A DNA stretch of 34,218 nucleotides from positions 1 to 34,218 of the forward strand of contig JAPPDX010000036.1 in NCBI GenBank assembly GCA_028824415.1, given 5' to 3'. How positions within the stretch are numbered: the first letter of the stretch is position 1; every line of letters begins with the position of its first letter. Under the pieces are notes generated by a model. It did not search any database and was not told the DNA's origin. It saw only the letters and a list, made by a program, of their open reading frames with translations. Origin of the DNA: a bacterium. Its GTDB lineage: Bacteria; Actinomycetota; Acidimicrobiia; Acidimicrobiales; CATQHL01. Of the stretch, positions 627 to 7,324 are shown one piece after another. Made by a program: the position numbers and the translations under genes.

Positions 627-931
627 CCCAAGGCGAACTGTGGCTTATGGAGCCGCCCAACCAGAAGCGTCGCCCGGCGCTGGTCGTCTCACGTGACGAG
701 GCGATCCCCGTGCTCAACAACGTGGTCGTGGCGCCGGTGACGGGCACGATTCGCTCGATTCCGACCTGTGTGCCGGTCGGGCCGGACGAGGGGATCGACC
801 GCGACAGCGTCGCATCGTTCGACAATCTCGCCGCGGTGCCGAAATCGGTCCTCACGCTGCGGCTCGGACAACTGGACGGGGTGGGGCGCCGCCGGATGTG
901 CGATGCACTCCGGGCAATGGCCAACTGCTGA
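620..931 (+). CDS. mazF: MazF/PemK-family mRNA interferase toxin
   Basis: A 103-residue protein with the MazF layout: GELWLMEPPNQKRRPALVVSRDE (the G-[ED]-[IV]-W topology with the R-R-P-x-[LV]-V-[LV] strand), VVVAPVTGTIRSIPTCV (the central strand with conserved T-x-x-R), then ESVASFDNL-type residues (DSVASFDNLAAVPKSVL) leading to the final helix. In the family this is a ribosome-independent endoribonuclease that cleaves mRNA at short motifs and arrests growth. Start GTG 620 overlaps the antitoxin stop by seven bases. The pair has its own promoter and is bracketed by identical hairpin repeats, which suggests it arrived or moves as a unit. It is only distantly similar to the second MazF in this window (23169-23477). 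Confidence 0.85.
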   Translation: MVAQGELWLMEPPNQKRRPALVVSRDEAIPVLNNVVVAPVTGTIRSIPTCVPVGPDEGIDRDSVASFDNLAAVPKSVLTLRLGQLDGVGRRRMCDALRAMANC

Positions 932-972
932 GTCCCGTCTGCCGGCGCGGGAAACCGCCGGATCTCGTCGAA

Positions 973-1000
973 CATGGATTCCGGCCTCCGCCGGAATGAC
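973..1000. repeat. 28-bp hairpin repeat, copy 2
   Basis: Identical to the copy at 301-328 and in direct orientation, with an 8-bp perfect stem around CTCC. It lies 41 bases after the MazF stop and could also serve as its transcription terminator, although no T-run follows. Confidence 0.85.
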
Positions 1001-1079
1001 GTGGAGATGGCCTTCGGTGGGATGACTCGGGGGTGAGACTGCGGCGCTGAACCGGGGCGACCTCCTGATTTGCCAAATA

Positions 1080-1093
1080 CGAACAAGTGTTCG
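1080..1093. promoter_or_regulatory. LexA (SOS) box of imuA'-imuB, with overlapping leaderless promoter
   Basis: CGAACAAGTGTTCG is a perfect 6+2+6 palindrome. It matches the Gram-positive/actinobacterial LexA consensus CGAAC-N4-GTTCG at every fixed position. The -10-like GATACT (1093-1098) starts at the last base of the box and is followed by six bases and the ATG at 1105, so bound LexA would occlude the promoter. Induction of the mutasome by DNA damage is the expected result. Confidence 0.92.
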
Positions 1094-1104
1094 ATACTGT
1101 TCGG

Positions 1105-1992
1105 ATGGCTGATCCCGAGAACGTCCCCGGAACCACTCCGGGGAGCGCCCCGGTTGACGACGCGCCGGGCAGCGGGCGGGATCATCTGCGGCTGCTGGGG
1201 GATCGGGTCGCTCCTCTCACCGGTGCCCACGAGCGGACCCTGCCGGTGCTGTCTGCGCTGCGGGACCTGTTCCCCGGCGGGGCCCTGCAGAGAGGGTGGG
1301 TGATCACCACCGGCGGTGACGGCGCCACCTCGCTGGCCCTGGCCGTCGCCGCGGGCCCGTCGGCGGCCGGTTCGTGGACGGCGGTGGTGGGGGAGGAGGG
1401 TCTCGGTCTCGCCGCCGCTGCCGAGGCCGGGCTGGCGCTCGAACGGCTCCTGATGGTCGCCGCCCCCGAACCCCGTGTCGCCGTCGAGGCCACAGCGGCA
1501 CTGCTCGGTGCGGTGGACGTCGTGCTGGTCGGCTCGGAGGTCCGGCTCGGGGCGGCGGATCGTCGCCGGCTGGCGGCCAGGCTGCGAGAGCGGGGATCGG
1601 TGCTGATCGGTCTCGGTGATGGGGCCCTGAGTGGTAGGGCCCTGAGTGGTGGGGGTCTCAGTGGTGGGGGTCTCAGTGGTGGGACCCTGGCTGGCGCGGA
1701 CGTGCGCCTGCAGGTCGTCTCGTCCCGCTGGAGCGGTCTGGGGGACGGCTGGGGCCTGCTGCGCTCCCGCCACGTGTCGGTGCGGGCCGAGGGGCGTGGC
1801 GCGGCGAGCAGACCGCGCTCGGCGGATCTGCTGCTGCCCGGCCCCGACGGCGCGCCGGCCCTGGCGGAGCCCGCCGCGGATGGCCGCCCCGGCCGGCTGC
1901 CTGCAGGGGCCGAGCTTGCAGGGGCCGAGTCTGCCGGTGCCACGCTTGCCGTCACGGCGCTCGACACCGAGGTCGAAGCGGTTGTGGCGTGA
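1105..1992 (+). CDS. imuA': ImuA'-like RecA-fold mutasome protein
   Basis: A 295-residue protein of the actinobacterial ImuA' type. After a variable N-terminus comes a RecA-like core: LRDLFPGGALQRGWVITTGGDGATSLALAVAA, in which the Walker-A position reads TTGGDGATS and lacks the usual Lys. It is followed by WTAVVGEEGLGLAAAAEAGLALERLLMVAA and ALLGAVDVVLVGSEV. In mycobacteria ImuA' works with ImuB and DnaE2 in SOS-induced mutagenic translesion synthesis. Start: ATG 1105, six bases after a -10 hexamer under a perfect LexA box; an in-frame GTG inside the box is rejected. Two in-frame 15-bp minisatellites add glycine-rich and AGAEL-type repeats (1621-1695 and 1903-1947). The C-terminus ends EAVVA and its TGA overlaps a GTG that opens the tandem module array. 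Confidence 0.88.
   Translation: MADPENVPGTTPGSAPVDDAPGSGRDHLRLLGDRVAPLTGAHERTLPVLSALRDLFPGGALQRGWVITTGGDGATSLALAVAAGPSAAGSWTAVVGEEGLGLAAAAEAGLALERLLMVAAPEPRVAVEATAALLGAVDVVLVGSEVRLGAADRRRLAARLRERGSVLIGLGDGALSGRALSGGGLSGGGLSGGTLAGADVRLQVVSSRWSGLGDGWGLLRSRHVSVRAEGRGAASRPRSADLLLPGPDGAPALAEPAADGRPGRLPAGAELAGAESAGATLAVTALDTEVEAVVA
1621..1695 (+). repeat. 15-bp in-frame minisatellite in imuA' (5 units)
   Basis: Five contiguous 15-bp units, of which the third and fourth (GGGGGTCTCAGTGGT) are identical and the first two differ at one base. They encode GALSG, RALSG, GGLSG, GGLSG and GTLAG. The unit length keeps the frame, so copy-number change would lengthen or shorten a surface loop without breaking the gene. 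Confidence 0.92.
1903..1947 (+). repeat. 15-bp in-frame minisatellite near imuA' 3' end (3 units)
   Basis: Three 15-bp units (GCAGGGGCCGAGCTT, then one with two changed bases, then a diverged one) encode AGAEL, AGAES and AGATL just before the ImuA' C-terminus. Confidence 0.8.
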
Positions 1993-2096
1993 CCGCTCCG
2001 ATCTGCACGCTGGTGACCCGCTACGTGCCCGCCGGAGACGGCCCTCAAGGGGTCGATTCTCTAGAGGGCGGCGCCTTCGAGCGGGTTGTTGCGTGA
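1989..2096 (+). CDS. Short ORF, duplicated ImuB N-terminus, copy 1 (35 aa)
   Basis: GTG 1989 overlaps the imuA' stop (GTGA), and the 35-codon frame closes on a TGA that overlaps the next GTG. The peptide (MTAPICTLVTRY...FERVVA) aligns without gaps to the first 35 residues of ImuB. It probably has no function of its own. It may still be translated by termination-reinitiation and pass ribosomes from imuA' to imuB. Confidence 0.35.
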   Translation: MTAPICTLVTRYVPAGDGPQGVDSLEGGAFERVVA

Positions 2097-2185
2097 CCGC
2101 TCCGGTTCGCAGGCTGGTGGCCTGCTGCGCTCCTGCGAGGGCTGGCTCTCCGCTCGCCGGTGGCTTTGAGGCGGTTGTGGCGTGA
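2093..2185 (+). CDS. Short ORF, duplicated ImuB N-terminus, copy 2 (30 aa)
   Basis: GTG 2093 overlaps the stop of the preceding short ORF, and its own TGA (2183-2185) overlaps the imuB GTG at 2182. The peptide MTAPVRRLVACC...FEAVVA is a shortened relative of the ImuB start. Like copy 1 it is best seen as a relic of duplication that preserves translational coupling, not as a separate protein. Confidence 0.35.
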   Translation: MTAPVRRLVACCAPARAGSPLAGGFEAVVA

Positions 2186-3708
2186 CCGTTCCGGTTCGCA
2201 CGCTGGTGGCCCGCTGCGTTTCCATCGGGGACGATTCTCAAGGGGCCGGCTCCCTGGAGGGCGGTGCCTTTGAGCCGGCTGTGGCGTCCCTCGACGATGT
2301 CACCCCGCAGGTGGAGGTGTCGGTGCCTGGGACCTGCGCCTTTGCCTCCCGGGGTCCGTCTCGTTACTTCGGCGGCGACGGGGTCCTGGCCGAACTGGTC
2401 GTCGAGCGCATGTCGCAGGCTCTCGGGGGGCGTGCGGCGGTGCGGGTCGGCGTCGCCGACGGTCCCTTCACCGCGGCGGTGGCGGCGGAGCTGGCGGAAC
2501 GGGTGTGCATCGTCGAGCCGGGTGGCAGTGCTGCGTTCCTGGCGCCCCTGCCGGTGCGGCTGCTGGGCAACTCTCAACTCACCGACGTGTTGGTCCGCCT
2601 GGGTGTCCGCACTCTCGGTGACTTCGCGGCGCTGCCGGAGGCCGACGTGCTGGGGCGTTTCGGCACCGAGGGCCGGCGCGCCCAGTGCCTTGCCGCCGGG
2701 GCCGACGAGCGGCCCCTCGCCCTGCGGGAACCTCCCGGCGACTGGTCGGTGAGCGCCGAGTTCGAGCCGCCCGCCGAGGGTCTGGACCGGGTGGCCTTCT
2801 GCGCCCGCGCCCTGGCCGAGGAACTGCAGCAGCGCCTCGAGAAGGCCGGGATGTCGTGCCTGCGGGTCGCCGTCGAGGTCGAGACCAGCGACGGCGAGAG
2901 CTTCGTGCGGCTCTGGCGCCACGAGGGGGGACTGTCGGCCGGTGATATGGCCGACAGGGTGCGCTGGTTCCTCGACAGCTGCTCGGCAGGCTCCGGCGGC
3001 CGCTCGACCGGCTCCGACGGTCCTCCGCCCGGTTCCGGCGGCCGATCGACCGGCTCCGGCCACCCGGCTGGTTCTGGCGGCTCCCGGTCCGGCTCCGGCG
3101 GCACGGCCGGCTCCGGCGGCTCCCGGCCAAGCAGCGGGATTACCTGGCTGCGGCTCGCTGCTGACGAGTTGGCGCCGGTCCGGGGACGGCAGTTGGGGTT
3201 CTGGGGTGGCGAGGCCGAGGCGGATGAGCGCGCCGCCCGGGTTGCGGCCCGGCTCTGCGGGCGCTGGGGCGCCGATGCGGTCCAGGTGCCCACCCGGGGT
3301 GGCGGTCGGCAGGTCGATGAGCAGATCGCGCTGGTGCCGGTGGCCGCCGTCGACGTCCGTGACCGCCGGCTCGCCGGCGACGACCGTCCCTGGCCCGGCC
3401 GCCTGCCGGCCCCGTCGCCGGCGCGTCTCCTCCCAGTGCCTTGGCCCGCCGAAGTGCAGGACGCCTCGGGTACCACCGTGCGGGTAGACGGCCGGGGTTC
3501 GGTCTCGACGCCGCCGGCTCGGGTGACAGTCGGCGGCAGGTCCGCAGCGGTGGTGGCCTGGGCGGGGCCGTGGCCCACCGAGGAGCGCTGGTGGGACCGG
3601 GGGCGCCGGCGCCGCCGGGCTCGCCTCCAGTTGCTCACCGGCGACGGTCTGGGGTGCCTGGCGGTGCTGGAACGGGGCCGCTGGCAGCTGACGGCCTTGT
3701 GGGATTGA
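2182..3708 (+). CDS. imuB: ImuB-like Y-family polymerase homologue, N-terminally shortened
   Basis: A 508-residue mutasome adaptor. Family-typical blocks are AFEPAVASLDDVTPQVEVSVPG, RGPSRYFGG, VGVADGPFTAA, AFLAPLPVRLL, LVRLGVRTLGDFAALPEADVLGRFG, LQLGFWGG-like QLGFWGG, and the C-terminal WPGRLPAPSPA and GPWPTEERWWD. In mycobacteria ImuB is catalytically dead and links ImuA' and DnaE2 to the beta clamp. Oddities: only about 30 residues precede FEPAVA, whereas actinobacterial ImuB normally has about 80, including an ANRVxACS-(S/A)-A-R-x-x-GVRRG-type segment that is absent here. A glycine/serine-rich tract at residues 269-319 interrupts the protein before the QLGFWGG region. Start GTG 2182 is the third copy of the repeated module. 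GTG 1989 and GTG 2093 cannot be starts because they close out of frame. Confidence 0.85.
   Translation: MTVPVRTLVARCVSIGDDSQGAGSLEGGAFEPAVASLDDVTPQVEVSVPGTCAFASRGPSRYFGGDGVLAELVVERMSQALGGRAAVRVGVADGPFTAAVAAELAERVCIVEPGGSAAFLAPLPVRLLGNSQLTDVLVRLGVRTLGDFAALPEADVLGRFGTEGRRAQCLAAGADERPLALREPPGDWSVSAEFEPPAEGLDRVAFCARALAEELQQRLEKAGMSCLRVAVEVETSDGESFVRLWRHEGGLSAGDMADRVRWFLDSCSAGSGGRSTGSDGPPPGSGGRSTGSGHPAGSGGSRSGSGGTAGSGGSRPSSGITWLRLAADELAPVRGRQLGFWGGEAEADERAARVAARLCGRWGADAVQVPTRGGGRQVDEQIALVPVAAVDVRDRRLAGDDRPWPGRLPAPSPARLLPVPWPAEVQDASGTTVRVDGRGSVSTPPARVTVGGRSAAVVAWAGPWPTEERWWDRGRRRRRARLQLLTGDGLGCLAVLERGRWQLTALWD
2986..3138 (+). repeat. Gly/Ser-rich low-complexity tract in imuB
   Basis: It encodes about 51 residues (269-319) built from GSGG, STGS and GSGGSR-like words. 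Variants of GGCTCCGGCGGC recur at irregular spacing. It falls between the little-finger-like region and the C-terminal domain, probably as a flexible linker made by slippage or unequal exchange. Confidence 0.8.
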
Positions 3709-3721
3709 GATCGTTTGGGGT

Positions 3722-3905
3722 TGGGCTGATCCCGGGGGACTATGGGGCTGATCCCGGGGCTGTGCGATTGACCTTGGGGGGTGTGGGGCCGATCCTGCTG
3801 GCTGCCGGACTCGACACCGACACCAACCATGGGCAGCTGATCCTGCCGGGATTGACCCTGCGGTACTGACCCTACGGGACGGCTCTGCGGGGCCGATCCT
3901 GTGGG
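3722..3905. repeat. Degenerate repeats filling the imuB-dnaE2 spacer
   Basis: GGGCTGATCCCGGGG occurs exactly at 3723-3737 and 3745-3759 (22-bp period). Degenerate versions (GGGCCGATCCTG, GCTGATCCTGCCGGG, ATTGACCCTG, ACTGACCCTA, GGGCCGATCCTG) continue to about 3905. No protein-like reading frame or family is seen. The block separates imuB from the dnaE2 promoter. Confidence 0.65.
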
Positions 3906-3930
3906 ATCGGGCAGGCGCGACTGACGCATT

Positions 3931-3956
3931 GGTATACGAACATATATTCGTATACC
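3931..3956. promoter_or_regulatory. LexA box in a 26-bp palindrome, leaderless promoter of dnaE2
   Basis: A 26-bp inverted repeat has only one mismatched pair. Its core CGAACATATATTCG (3937-3950) fits the LexA consensus with one deviation. The palindrome arm itself supplies the -10 hexamer TATACC (3951-3956), which ends eight bases before the GTG at 3965. So dnaE2 has its own SOS promoter and does not depend on readthrough from imuB. Confidence 0.9.
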
Positions 3957-3964
3957 GTAGGGGA

Positions 3965-6900
3965 GTGGGCTGGAACAATCCCAACGTTCCGTGGAGCGAC
4001 ATCGAGCACCTCCTCTCGGACCGGCCTTTCTCGGACCGTGCGTCGGCGGGTCGCCCCGTCGACATCTGGGCGGGCGACGGGAACGACAGCCCGGCCTGGT
4101 CGCGCAAGCGCCGGGCGTACCGACCGCCGGCCGACCTGGTCAGCCGGCAGGAGCCGGTCCGCTATGCGGAGCTGCACTGCCACTCCAACTTCTCCTTCCT
4201 GGACGGTGCCTCCCATCCCGAGGAGCTGGCCACCGAGGCCACCCGGCTGGGGCTAGAGGCGCTGGCCATCTGCGATCACAACGGCTTCTACGGCGTGGTG
4301 CGCTTCGCCGAGGCGGCCGGGGCCCTCGGGCTCCCGACGATCTTCGGCGCCGAGCTCACCCTGACGCCGCAGGCGCCCCCCTCGCCGCAGCCCCGCCGGC
4401 GCCGGCGGAAGGATCCCGAGCGCACCGGGTCGCCCGACCCCGCTGGGACCCACCTGCTGGTGCTGGTCCGCGACCCCCGCGGCTACGCGCTGCTGGCACG
4501 GGCCATCAGCGAAGGCCAGCTGGCGGGACGCAAGGATGCGCCCCGGATCGACTACCGGCGCCTCGTCGAACTCGGCGGGGCCGGCACCGGTGACCACTGG
4601 CTGATCCTCACCGGCTGCCGCAAGGCGGCGGTGCCGCGGGCCCTGGCGGCAGGAGGCACACCCGCCGCCCGCCGGGCGCTGGACCGTCTCACCGCCGACT
4701 TCGGTGCTGCCAACGTGGCCGTCGAGCTGTGGGACCACGGGCTGCCGGGCGACTCGGTGCGCAACGAGGCCCTCGCCGGGTTGGCCGGCGACCGGGGCCT
4801 GGCGCTCGTCGCCACCGGCAACGTGCACCACCACTCGGTGGATCGGCAGCGGCTGGCCGCCGCGCTGGCCGCGGTGCGGGCGCGCCGCAGCCTGGACGAG
4901 GTCGACGGCTGGTTGCCGCCGGCCGGCCGCCACCTCCGCTCGGGCGCCGAGCAGGCGGCCCGTTTCGCCCGCTGGCCGGGGGTCGTCGAGCGGGCCGCCG
5001 GCCTGGGGCGCGAGTGCGCCTTCGATCTGCAACTGCTGGCCCCCGACCTGCCGCCCTACCCCTGCCCCGGCGGCCTCGACGAGGCGGGCTACCTGCGTCG
5101 CCTCGTCGCCACCGGCGGTGCCCACCGCTACGGGCCCCGCGGCGCCGAGCGGGTCGCCGGCGCCTGGGCGCAACTCGACCGGGAACTCGACATCATCGAG
5201 AGGCTGGGGTTCTGCGGCTACTTCCTGGTGGTGTGGGACATCGTGGAGTTCTGCCGCCGGGGTGGGATCCTCTGCCAGGGGCGCGGCTCGGCCGCCAACT
5301 CGGCGGTGTGTTACGCCCTCGGCATCACCAACGTGGACGCCGTCTCGCTGGACCTGCTGTTCGAGCGGTTCCTGTCCCCGGCGCGCGACGGACCCCCCGA
5401 CATCGACGTGGACATCGAGAGCGGGCGCCGCGAGGAGGTCATCCAGTACGTCTACGAGCGCTACGGGCGCCACCACTGCGCCCAGGTGGCCAACGTCATC
5501 ACCTACCGCTCCCGCTCGGCGGTGCGCGATGCGGCACGGGCGCTGGGCCACGAGGACTCGCTGTCCAAGCTGGTCGACCACCGGCGGGGTATCCAGCAGG
5601 AGGCGGCCGACCCGCACAGCCCCGTCCCTCACGAAGTGTTGGAGTTGGCCGCCGAGATCGAGGACTTCCCTCGCCACCTGGGGATCCACTCCGGGGGCAT
5701 GGTCATCTGCGACCGGCCCGTGATCGAGGTGTGCCCCGTGGAGTGGGCGCGCATGGAGGGCCGCAGCGTCCTGCAGTGGGACAAGGACGACTGCGCCGCG
5801 GTGGGGTTGGTGAAGTTCGACCTGCTGGGGCTCGGGATGCTGTCGGCGCTGCGGTACGCCATCGACCTCGTCGCCGCATCCGACGGCATCGAGATCGACC
5901 TGGCCGCCCTGCCCCAGGAACCCGAGGTCTACGAGATGCTCTGCGCCGCCGACACGGTGGGGGTGTTCCAGGTGGAGTCGCGCGCCCAGATGGCCACGCT
6001 GCCCCGGCTGAAGCCCCGCTGCTTCTACGACCTCGTCGTGGAGGTCGCCCTCATCCGCCCCGGCCCCATCCAGGGCGGCTCGGTGCATCCCTACATCCGG
6101 CGCCGCAACGGCACCGAGGAGGTCACCTACCCCCATCCGCTGCTGGAGCGGGCGCTGGCCAAGACCCTCGGTGTGCCGCTCTTCCAGGAGCAGCTCATGC
6201 AGATCGCCATCGACGCGGCCAACTTCAGCGCGGCTGAGGCCGACCGGCTCCGCCAGGCGGTGGGCTCCAAGCGCAGCCACCGGCGCCTGGCCCAGCTCAA
6301 GGAGCGGTTCTTCGAGGGCATGGCGGCCAACGGCATCGACGGCGAGGTCGGCGAGCAGATCTGGCGGAAGCTGGACGCCTTCGCCAACTACGGCTTCCCC
6401 GAGAGCCACGCCGTGTCGTTCTCGTATCTCGTCTACGCCTCGTCGTGGATCAAGTACCACTACCCGGCTGCGTTCTGCGCCGCCCTGCTGCGGGCCCAGC
6501 CGATGGGGTTCTGGTCGCCCCACACCCTGGTGGGCGATGCCCGCCGCCACGGGGTGGTGGTGCGCACGCCCGATCTCAACGCCTCGGCGGCGACCGCCGG
6601 CCTGGAGCGGGCGGAGGACTCCACCGGCGGCTGGGCGGTGCGGCTGGGGCTCGACTATGTGCGGGGGGTCGGCGAGGAGCAGGCCACCGAGATCGACGCC
6701 GGCCGGCCCTACCGCTCGGTGGAGGACCTGCGGCGGCGGGTGCCGTCGCTGTCGACGGCGGCGCTGGAGGCTCTCGCCACCTCCGGGGCCTTCGCCTGCT
6801 TCGACCTCGACCGGCGAGCCGCGCTGTGGACGGCAGGGGCGCTGGGCCTGGCCGGCGCCGACCGCTTGGCCGGCATCGTCGTCGGCGGGCGGGCGCCCCC

Positions 6901-7324
6901 GCTGCCGGCCATGTCGCCCGCCGAGGTGTCCCAGGCCGACCTCTGGGCCACCGGGGTGGCCCCCGACGGCCATCCCACCCGTTTCGTCCGGGCCGAACTC
7001 GCATCCCTCGGCGTCGTGACCGCGGCCGATCTGGCCGGCCGCGGCGACGGGGAGAAGGTGCTGGTGGGGGGAGTGGTGACGCACCGCCAGCGTCCCGCCA
7101 CCGCAGGCGGGGTGATCTTCCTGAGCCTCGAGGACGAGACCGGGCTGATCAACGTGGTGGTCTCGCCGGGCTGCTGGCAATACCACCGCAAGGTGGCGGC
7201 CGCCTCGCCCGCCCTGCTGGTGCGGGGACGGCTCGAGCACTCCGAGGGGGTGTTGAACGTCGTCGCCGAGAGGCTCGAGGCGCTCCCGGTCAGCCGGGCC
7301 CCGGCCTCCCGGGACTTCCGCTGA
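3965..7324 (+). CDS. dnaE2: Error-prone DNA polymerase DnaE2
   Basis: A C-family polymerase alpha subunit of 1119 residues, the usual DnaE2 length. The N-terminus MGWNNPNVPWSDIEHLLSDRP is the family hallmark. A PHP domain starts at residue 69 (HCHSNFSFLDG, 71-81). The palm has the DIDVD cluster (479-483) and a third acidic residue in VKFDLLGLGML (D619). The C-terminus carries an OB fold (about 1030-1108) and ends in SRDFR. In mycobacteria DnaE2 is the SOS-induced polymerase that extends across lesions together with ImuA' and ImuB and causes induced mutation. Start GTG 3965 is chosen from the N-terminal motif and its position after TATACC; a TTG at 3929 would lie inside the LexA palindrome. 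Unlike its two partners, the gene shows no tandem repeats. Confidence 0.97.
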   Translation: MGWNNPNVPWSDIEHLLSDRPFSDRASAGRPVDIWAGDGNDSPAWSRKRRAYRPPADLVSRQEPVRYAELHCHSNFSFLDGASHPEELATEATRLGLEALAICDHNGFYGVVRFAEAAGALGLPTIFGAELTLTPQAPPSPQPRRRRRKDPERTGSPDPAGTHLLVLVRDPRGYALLARAISEGQLAGRKDAPRIDYRRLVELGGAGTGDHWLILTGCRKAAVPRALAAGGTPAARRALDRLTADFGAANVAVELWDHGLPGDSVRNEALAGLAGDRGLALVATGNVHHHSVDRQRLAAALAAVRARRSLDEVDGWLPPAGRHLRSGAEQAARFARWPGVVERAAGLGRECAFDLQLLAPDLPPYPCPGGLDEAGYLRRLVATGGAHRYGPRGAERVAGAWAQLDRELDIIERLGFCGYFLVVWDIVEFCRRGGILCQGRGSAANSAVCYALGITNVDAVSLDLLFERFLSPARDGPPDIDVDIESGRREEVIQYVYERYGRHHCAQVANVITYRSRSAVRDAARALGHEDSLSKLVDHRRGIQQEAADPHSPVPHEVLELAAEIEDFPRHLGIHSGGMVICDRPVIEVCPVEWARMEGRSVLQWDKDDCAAVGLVKFDLLGLGMLSALRYAIDLVAASDGIEIDLAALPQEPEVYEMLCAADTVGVFQVESRAQMATLPRLKPRCFYDLVVEVALIRPGPIQGGSVHPYIRRRNGTEEVTYPHPLLERALAKTLGVPLFQEQLMQIAIDAANFSAAEADRLRQAVGSKRSHRRLAQLKERFFEGMAANGIDGEVGEQIWRKLDAFANYGFPESHAVSFSYLVYASSWIKYHYPAAFCAALLRAQPMGFWSPHTLVGDARRHGVVVRTPDLNASAATAGLERAEDSTGGWAVRLGLDYVRGVGEEQATEIDAGRPYRSVEDLRRRVPSLSTAALEALATSGAFACFDLDRRAALWTAGALGLAGADRLAGIVVGGRAPPLPAMSPAEVSQADLWATGVAPDGHPTRFVRAELASLGVVTAADLAGRGDGEKVLVGGVVTHRQRPATAGGVIFLSLEDETGLINVVVSPGCWQYHRKVAAASPALLVRGRLEHSEGVLNVVAERLEALPVSRAPASRDFR

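Follow-up and report, generated by a model that had tools for sequence, protein, structure and literature searches.

The imuA'-imuB junction in the analyzed window (the whole 34,218-nt stretch, from genome G000) carries two extra short reading frames, and three 4-nt GTGA overlaps link imuA', the two frames (modules m1 and m2) and imuB into one chain, as read from the sequence and translations. The modules are most likely duplications of the junction itself, which are tolerated since termination-reinitiation still feeds imuB, probably at an attenuated level. The sequence-only reading of this DNA had described a four-step chain of imuA', two ORFs of 30–35 residues and imuB, with three copies of the ImuB start module lying head to tail, and our analysis confirmed both descriptions.

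The identities of the flanking genes are secure (Table 1): NCBIfam identifies ImuA' and, together with Pfam, DnaE2, and ImuB is recognized by its Y-family profile matches and model fold. The imuA' family is entitled 'DnaE2-dependent mutagenesis accessory factor ImuA''; the gene could instead start at ATG 1105. Its stop codon, TGA 1990–1992, lies within the first GTGA. The m1 and m2 frames translate as VTAPICTLVTRYVPAGDGPQGVDSLEGGAFERVVA and VTAPVRRLVACCAPARAGSPLAGGFEAVVA, respectively, each followed by a stop codon. For imuB, GTG 2182 is the sole start that lies after the preceding in-frame stop and ahead of the conserved VRTLVARC motif, and junction 3 has the strongest Shine-Dalgarno-like pairing among the three starts (-7.7 kcal/mol). 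The repeat search recovered three direct-repeat copies with spacings of 104 and 89 bp and 73–78% identity to the first copy. Tandem Repeats Finder reported a period of 89 with 2.3 copies; its score of 211 is the top score in the window. Chance origin of the three-copy repeat is excluded. No Rfam element matched at positions 900–4200.

Table 1. Features of the imuA'-imuB-dnaE2 locus in the window
Feature	Coordinates	Strand	Description and basis
imuA'	1087..1992	+	301 codons from GTG 1087; NCBIfam NF058630, E 1.2e-32; translation
Junction 1, GTGA	1989..1992	+	imuA' stop / module 1 start; sequence
Module 1 (m1), 35-aa ORF	1989..2096	+	ImuB start region, end VVA-stop; module alignment
Junction 2, GTGA	2093..2096	+	m1 stop / module 2 start; sequence
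Module 2 (m2), 30-aa ORF	2093..2185	+	5 codons shorter than m1
Junction 3, GTGA	2182..2185	+	m2 stop / imuB start; sequence
Third module copy (m3), imuB's own 5' end	2182..2289	+	36 codons
imuB	2182..3708	+	508 aa, Y-family-like
QLGFWG, putative beta-clamp-binding motif	3190..3207	+	Position and likeness to M. smegmatis QLPLW
dnaE2, error-prone polymerase	3929..7324	+	NCBIfam PRK05672.1, 1413 bits; Pfam domains

Just upstream of the locus, positions 324–931 hold a probable toxin-antitoxin pair, composed of one 100-aa ORF and one PemK/MazF-family toxin (Pfam E 1.4e-11); the two frames overlap, with GTG 620 ahead of the stop at 624–626. The pair is flanked by the palindromic element ATGGATTCCGGCCTCCGCCGGAATGAC at 301–328 and 973–1000. 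This element has 59 copies in the genome with at most one mismatch, compared to 0 for the reversed control pattern, and is a REP-like dispersed repeat.

The composition of the modules points to their origin. Both m1 and m2 open with the ImuB start (VTAPxxxLV) and follow ImuB as far as its residues FE-VVA; a stop then stands where ImuB has its next codon. The imuA' gene ends in EAVVA-stop, and m1 and m2 likewise close in VVA-TGA. Each module thus combines the head of ImuB with the tail of imuA', which is the arrangement expected from tandem duplication across the junction. In the proposed scheme, a segment spanning the 4-nt-overlap imuA'-imuB junction was duplicated in tandem, giving rise to the two extra modules; the copied piece would begin with the start codon of ImuB, extend to its codons 33–35 and there meet a duplicate of the final codons of imuA'. 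Every copy would then have a start in front and the imuA' stop behind, both within GTGA, so that the junctions copy themselves. Special microhomology was considered as a cause of the duplication; the imuA' end matches the ImuB recombination site at 13 of 18 positions, which does not exceed the best match in the background, and the idea was set aside.

The earlier reading had taken the frame shift at each step, with the overlap kept every time, as a sign of either very recent duplication or selection. The shift is arithmetic: a module of 36 or 31 codons, its stop included, loses 4 nt to the overlap, which gives the spacings of 104 and 89 bp, and a unit of whole codons minus 4 nt is always 2 mod 3. 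The spacings provide no independent sign of selection.

The duplication itself stood, whereas its proposed very recent date did not. The modules differ by 23% (m1-m3), 30% (m2-m3) and 32% (m1-m2), and the orthologous stretch in the sister species G006 is only 18% different from m3; the copies diverge more than the ortholog does, so the duplication is not recent. The same divergence excludes an assembly artefact. Although the G000 genome is in 138 contigs and 91% complete, a read-level or assembly error that created the modules has next to no probability, because the copies are so different and the same architecture lies within a 2.0-Mb contig of another genome, G129.

The module peptides look unconstrained, judging from their substitution patterns. 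The dN/dS of the modules is ∼0.5–0.7, with large error and few sites. For the imuB 5' stretch (m3 region), comparison of G000 and G006 gave dN 0.22 and dS 0.18 (dN/dS ∼1.25). In a neutral simulation (substitutions only, 15% divergence), 70% of runs remained without an internal stop, and 17% kept all starts and stops. Nor is the longest stretch of columns identical in all modules unusual (permutation p 0.23). Strong purifying selection on the peptides is therefore unsupported by dN/dS, simulation and permutation. It is very improbable that the modules encode functional small peptides, such as N-terminal ImuB fragments that bind partners: the frames are open despite their divergence and both keep the VTAPxxxLV start, but internal stops are rarely gained by chance at the G+C content of the locus, module content varies among lineages, and the peptides match no family. 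Selection to keep the chain, as proposed by the earlier reading, is possible for the single chain in the window, and is weakly suggested here, given the module bodies without clear constraint and the neutral runs that stay intact. Recurrence in other lineages is better evidence than this locus that overlap-keeping chains are retained.

The genus set comprises eight genomes and yielded seven ImuB contexts from six congeners besides G000, with G002 contributing two contigs; no ImuB was obtained from G005. G006, G003, G001 and the second G002 contig (L031) have a single direct -4 overlap. The ImuB N-terminus is full in all congeners except G006. The earlier reading had held that relatives with a direct overlap and full-length ImuB would speak against the chain; such relatives were found, and they show the extra modules to be derived, not unreal. 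G006 and G000 group together in the ImuB tree (support 94/99), and G006 possesses the same fingers-less ImuB N-terminus as G000, yet it has one direct overlap. G007 and G004 contain one extra ORF each (44 and 55 aa, respectively), built from the imuA' tail. The first G002 contig contains at least four extra ORFs (47, 47, 47 and 44 aa), with overlaps of 14, 14 and 14 nt, then 4 nt to imuB. On this contig (L033, positions 1–570), tandem 130-bp units lie at the contig edge, and their copy number is probably undercounted by the assembly. The differing imuA'-imuB loci on L031 and L033 represent either a true second copy or a mixed bin.

To place the chain in the order, we surveyed 124 imuA'-imuB loci in which both genes were readable. 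A tandem duplication whose length is not a multiple of three (non-3n) is present at the junction in five of them: G000, G007, G013, G083 and G129. G004, with degenerate copies, and G002, with a contig lacking imuA', are further cases outside the five. Of the 124 loci, 53 offer a start at -4 and 95 a start within -14 to +10. The architecture of the window recurs in G129, which belongs to another family: its imuA' is followed by VSAVRALVAHCGRGGTVRARLRVVS and a stop, an identical ORF and imuB, and every overlap is -4. The two 25-aa modules of G129 have a 74-bp unit and 99% identity, and its ImuB is full length. The modules match the end of imuA' (RLRVVS-stop) at their tail and the ImuB start (VSAVRALV) at their head, which makes the duplication directly visible. 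G083 contains four mini-ORFs (39, 13, 13 and 14 aa) with -4 at each step, whereas G013 contains one 26-aa module with overlaps of -4 and -1. Module content differs among lineages: it is the ImuB start in G000 and G129, the imuA' tail in G007, G004 and G013, and proline-rich repeats in G083. This kind of chain has arisen separately in several related bacteria.

The base units of 104/89, 131, 77, 38 and 74 bp all fall in the 2 mod 3 class, which preserves a -4 chain; for five of five independent events the chance is ∼0.004, although recombination in codon phase might favour this class as well. Codon-phased GC-rich microhomology, rather than selection, could favour in-frame fusion. The tandem repeat of G232 (L134) lies inside the imuA' reading frame and makes no relay; at positions 1485–1658 of this locus, 18-bp-type repeats (CDVPVD) extend the imuA' C-terminus in frame, a further sign that this tail can expand freely. 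L020 and L078 offer possible relay paths, but they have no tandem duplication and were not counted. None of ∼20 actinobacterial loci outside the order has a relay, a sample too small for a conclusion.

As controls, we analyzed 1.60 Mb of DNA from the same order, with gene calls made by a simple in-house rule. This DNA contains 668 co-directional gene pairs, 176 of which are close-spaced and 90 of which have an exact -4 or -1 overlap. Under the same rule it holds 29 tandem-repeat clusters; eight are non-3n, including three CRISPR arrays. In the first control set, the two non-3n duplications proved on inspection to be a copied gene end and a tRNA region; the second set contributed CRISPR arrays, repeats between genes and one repeat inside a gene. 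Read individually, no non-3n control repeat forms a stop-start chain. The junction windows hold five non-3n duplications in 48.5 kb, compared to five non-CRISPR ones in 1.60 Mb of control DNA (expected 0.15, P ∼6e-7). Stop-start chains are absent from all 668 control pairs, a clear excess at the junction (Fisher 9e-5), and from the 176 close-spaced ones, a moderate excess (0.011). Against the exact -4/-1 pairs (0 of 90), however, the difference falls short of significance (P 0.063), and a hotspot confined to imuA'-imuB is no more than a possibility.

The window ImuB is the only one in the G000 genome. Its best match among the pol IV models of NCBIfam has E 2.8e-16 (residues 88–239), and its AlphaFold model, of moderate confidence (mean pLDDT 73, pTM 0.40), matches DinB, Dpo4 and Rev1. 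Compared to a full-length ImuB with palm, fingers, thumb and little finger, it lacks the fingers segment of the Y-family fold: only 17 aa lie between RC and FE, versus 65 in the congener G001, and no match to a pol IV profile begins before profile position 88, versus 33–73 in the G001 protein. The putative clamp motif resembles the beta-clamp-binding motif QLPLW of M. smegmatis ImuB (PMC11791113); Gly339, Trp341 and Gly342 are invariant in ImuB alignment A1. The three genes lie together, with the clamp motif and the ImuB C-terminal region, as in an ImuA'-ImuB-DnaE2 mutasome. Since G006 has the same loss without modules, the loss of the fingers is most readily assigned to a separate event, earlier than the modules or alongside them.

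The missing fingers raise the question of whether the locus is turning into a pseudogene, with both repeats and fingers loss reflecting relaxed selection. The fast-evolving ImuB N-terminus and low-complexity inserts in imuA' and imuB agree with such decay. Nevertheless we consider it improbable: between G000 and G006 the whole imuB has dN 0.11 and dS 0.33 (dN/dS ∼0.34; 0.18 in the last 108 residues), imuA' has dN/dS ∼0.36, the clamp motif and C-terminal region are kept, and the dnaE2 domains are full-length by Pfam. Moreover, many ImuB proteins are reported to have lost structural elements, and reduced forms to be common (PMC12926913); the window ImuB is nothing new in kind. By eye, fingers-less N-termini also occur in ∼10 other families of the order (L024, L039, L060, L071, L073–L078, L141 and L164). 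As to the inserts, tandem 15-bp repeats at 1616–1689 (∼5 copies) add an LSGG-type stretch to imuA', and positions 2984–3128 hold a Gly-Ser-rich tandem repeat insert in imuB; the G006 ImuB is 47 aa shorter, largely here.

Overlaps of -4 couple translation by termination-reinitiation, with an efficiency that varies by pair (PMC6728339, PMC10666635, PMC12548453). Such a stop-start overlap (-4 or -1 for this type of pair) is found at all three GTGA junctions. We infer that a ribosome finishing imuA' would restart on m1, then on m2, then on imuB. ImuB output would survive, probably reduced by the product of the restart efficiencies, and the module peptides are most likely by-products. The Shine-Dalgarno-like sequence of imuB itself makes fresh initiation possible, which counts against the relay.

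The same scheme could be carried further, with the imuA'-imuB junction of the order being a recurrent attenuator of variable copy number, in which each step lowers ImuB and selection adds or removes modules to set the amount of ImuB per ImuA'. Recurrence in at least five lineages, old copies still open in G000, G007 and G004, and several copies in G002 and G083 argue for it, and scarce ImuB is plausible for a mutagenic clamp-binding hub. However, most relatives carry no module, and neutral retention after duplication fits the same facts, with module bodies lacking clear constraint. We therefore regard tuning as unlikely, though an interesting alternative; tolerated duplication is the most economical account.

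The nearest known kind of element is the mycobacterial interspersed repetitive unit (MIRU). Classical MIRUs are tens to ∼100 bp in size and can occur in tandem arrays. Like a MIRU, each window module is a small ORF with -4 overlaps to the upstream stop and the downstream start. MIRUs, short units in which a -4 overlap couples a small ORF to the gene beside it, are thought to be tolerated as coupling keeps expression (PMC12548453). Different from MIRUs, which are dispersed and apparently mobile, the window unit is local and built from the flanking genes. Searched against its own genome, module DNA matched only imuA'-imuB at a meaningful E (best match elsewhere, E 0.045); a dispersed repeat family was rejected, as the module is at no other place in the genome. 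By our comparison, the modules would act like a MIRU array but, judged by dispersal, are not one. Each junction has the same -4 geometry as ATGA/GTGA termination-reinitiation pairs (PMC6728339, PMC10666635); however, the known cases join real genes, whereas here serial extra steps lie between two genes. The modules also resemble short upstream ORFs that deliver ribosomes, in which a gene is coupled to a non-functional ORF ahead of it (PMC12548453; a synthetic design is given in PMC13255528), but they lie inside an operon, stem from junction duplication and form series of up to four or more.

Taken together, a tandem duplication over a 4-nt overlap yields a mini-gene already joined at both ends, so that a coupled junction can copy itself. 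Coupled junctions would tolerate duplications that would wreck genes elsewhere. The natural series of 0, 1, 2 and at least 4 restart steps before one gene offers a ready test of whether restart efficiencies multiply. As a conjecture, because ImuB is the hub of the error-prone polymerase complex, the number of steps could bear on the inducible mutation rate.
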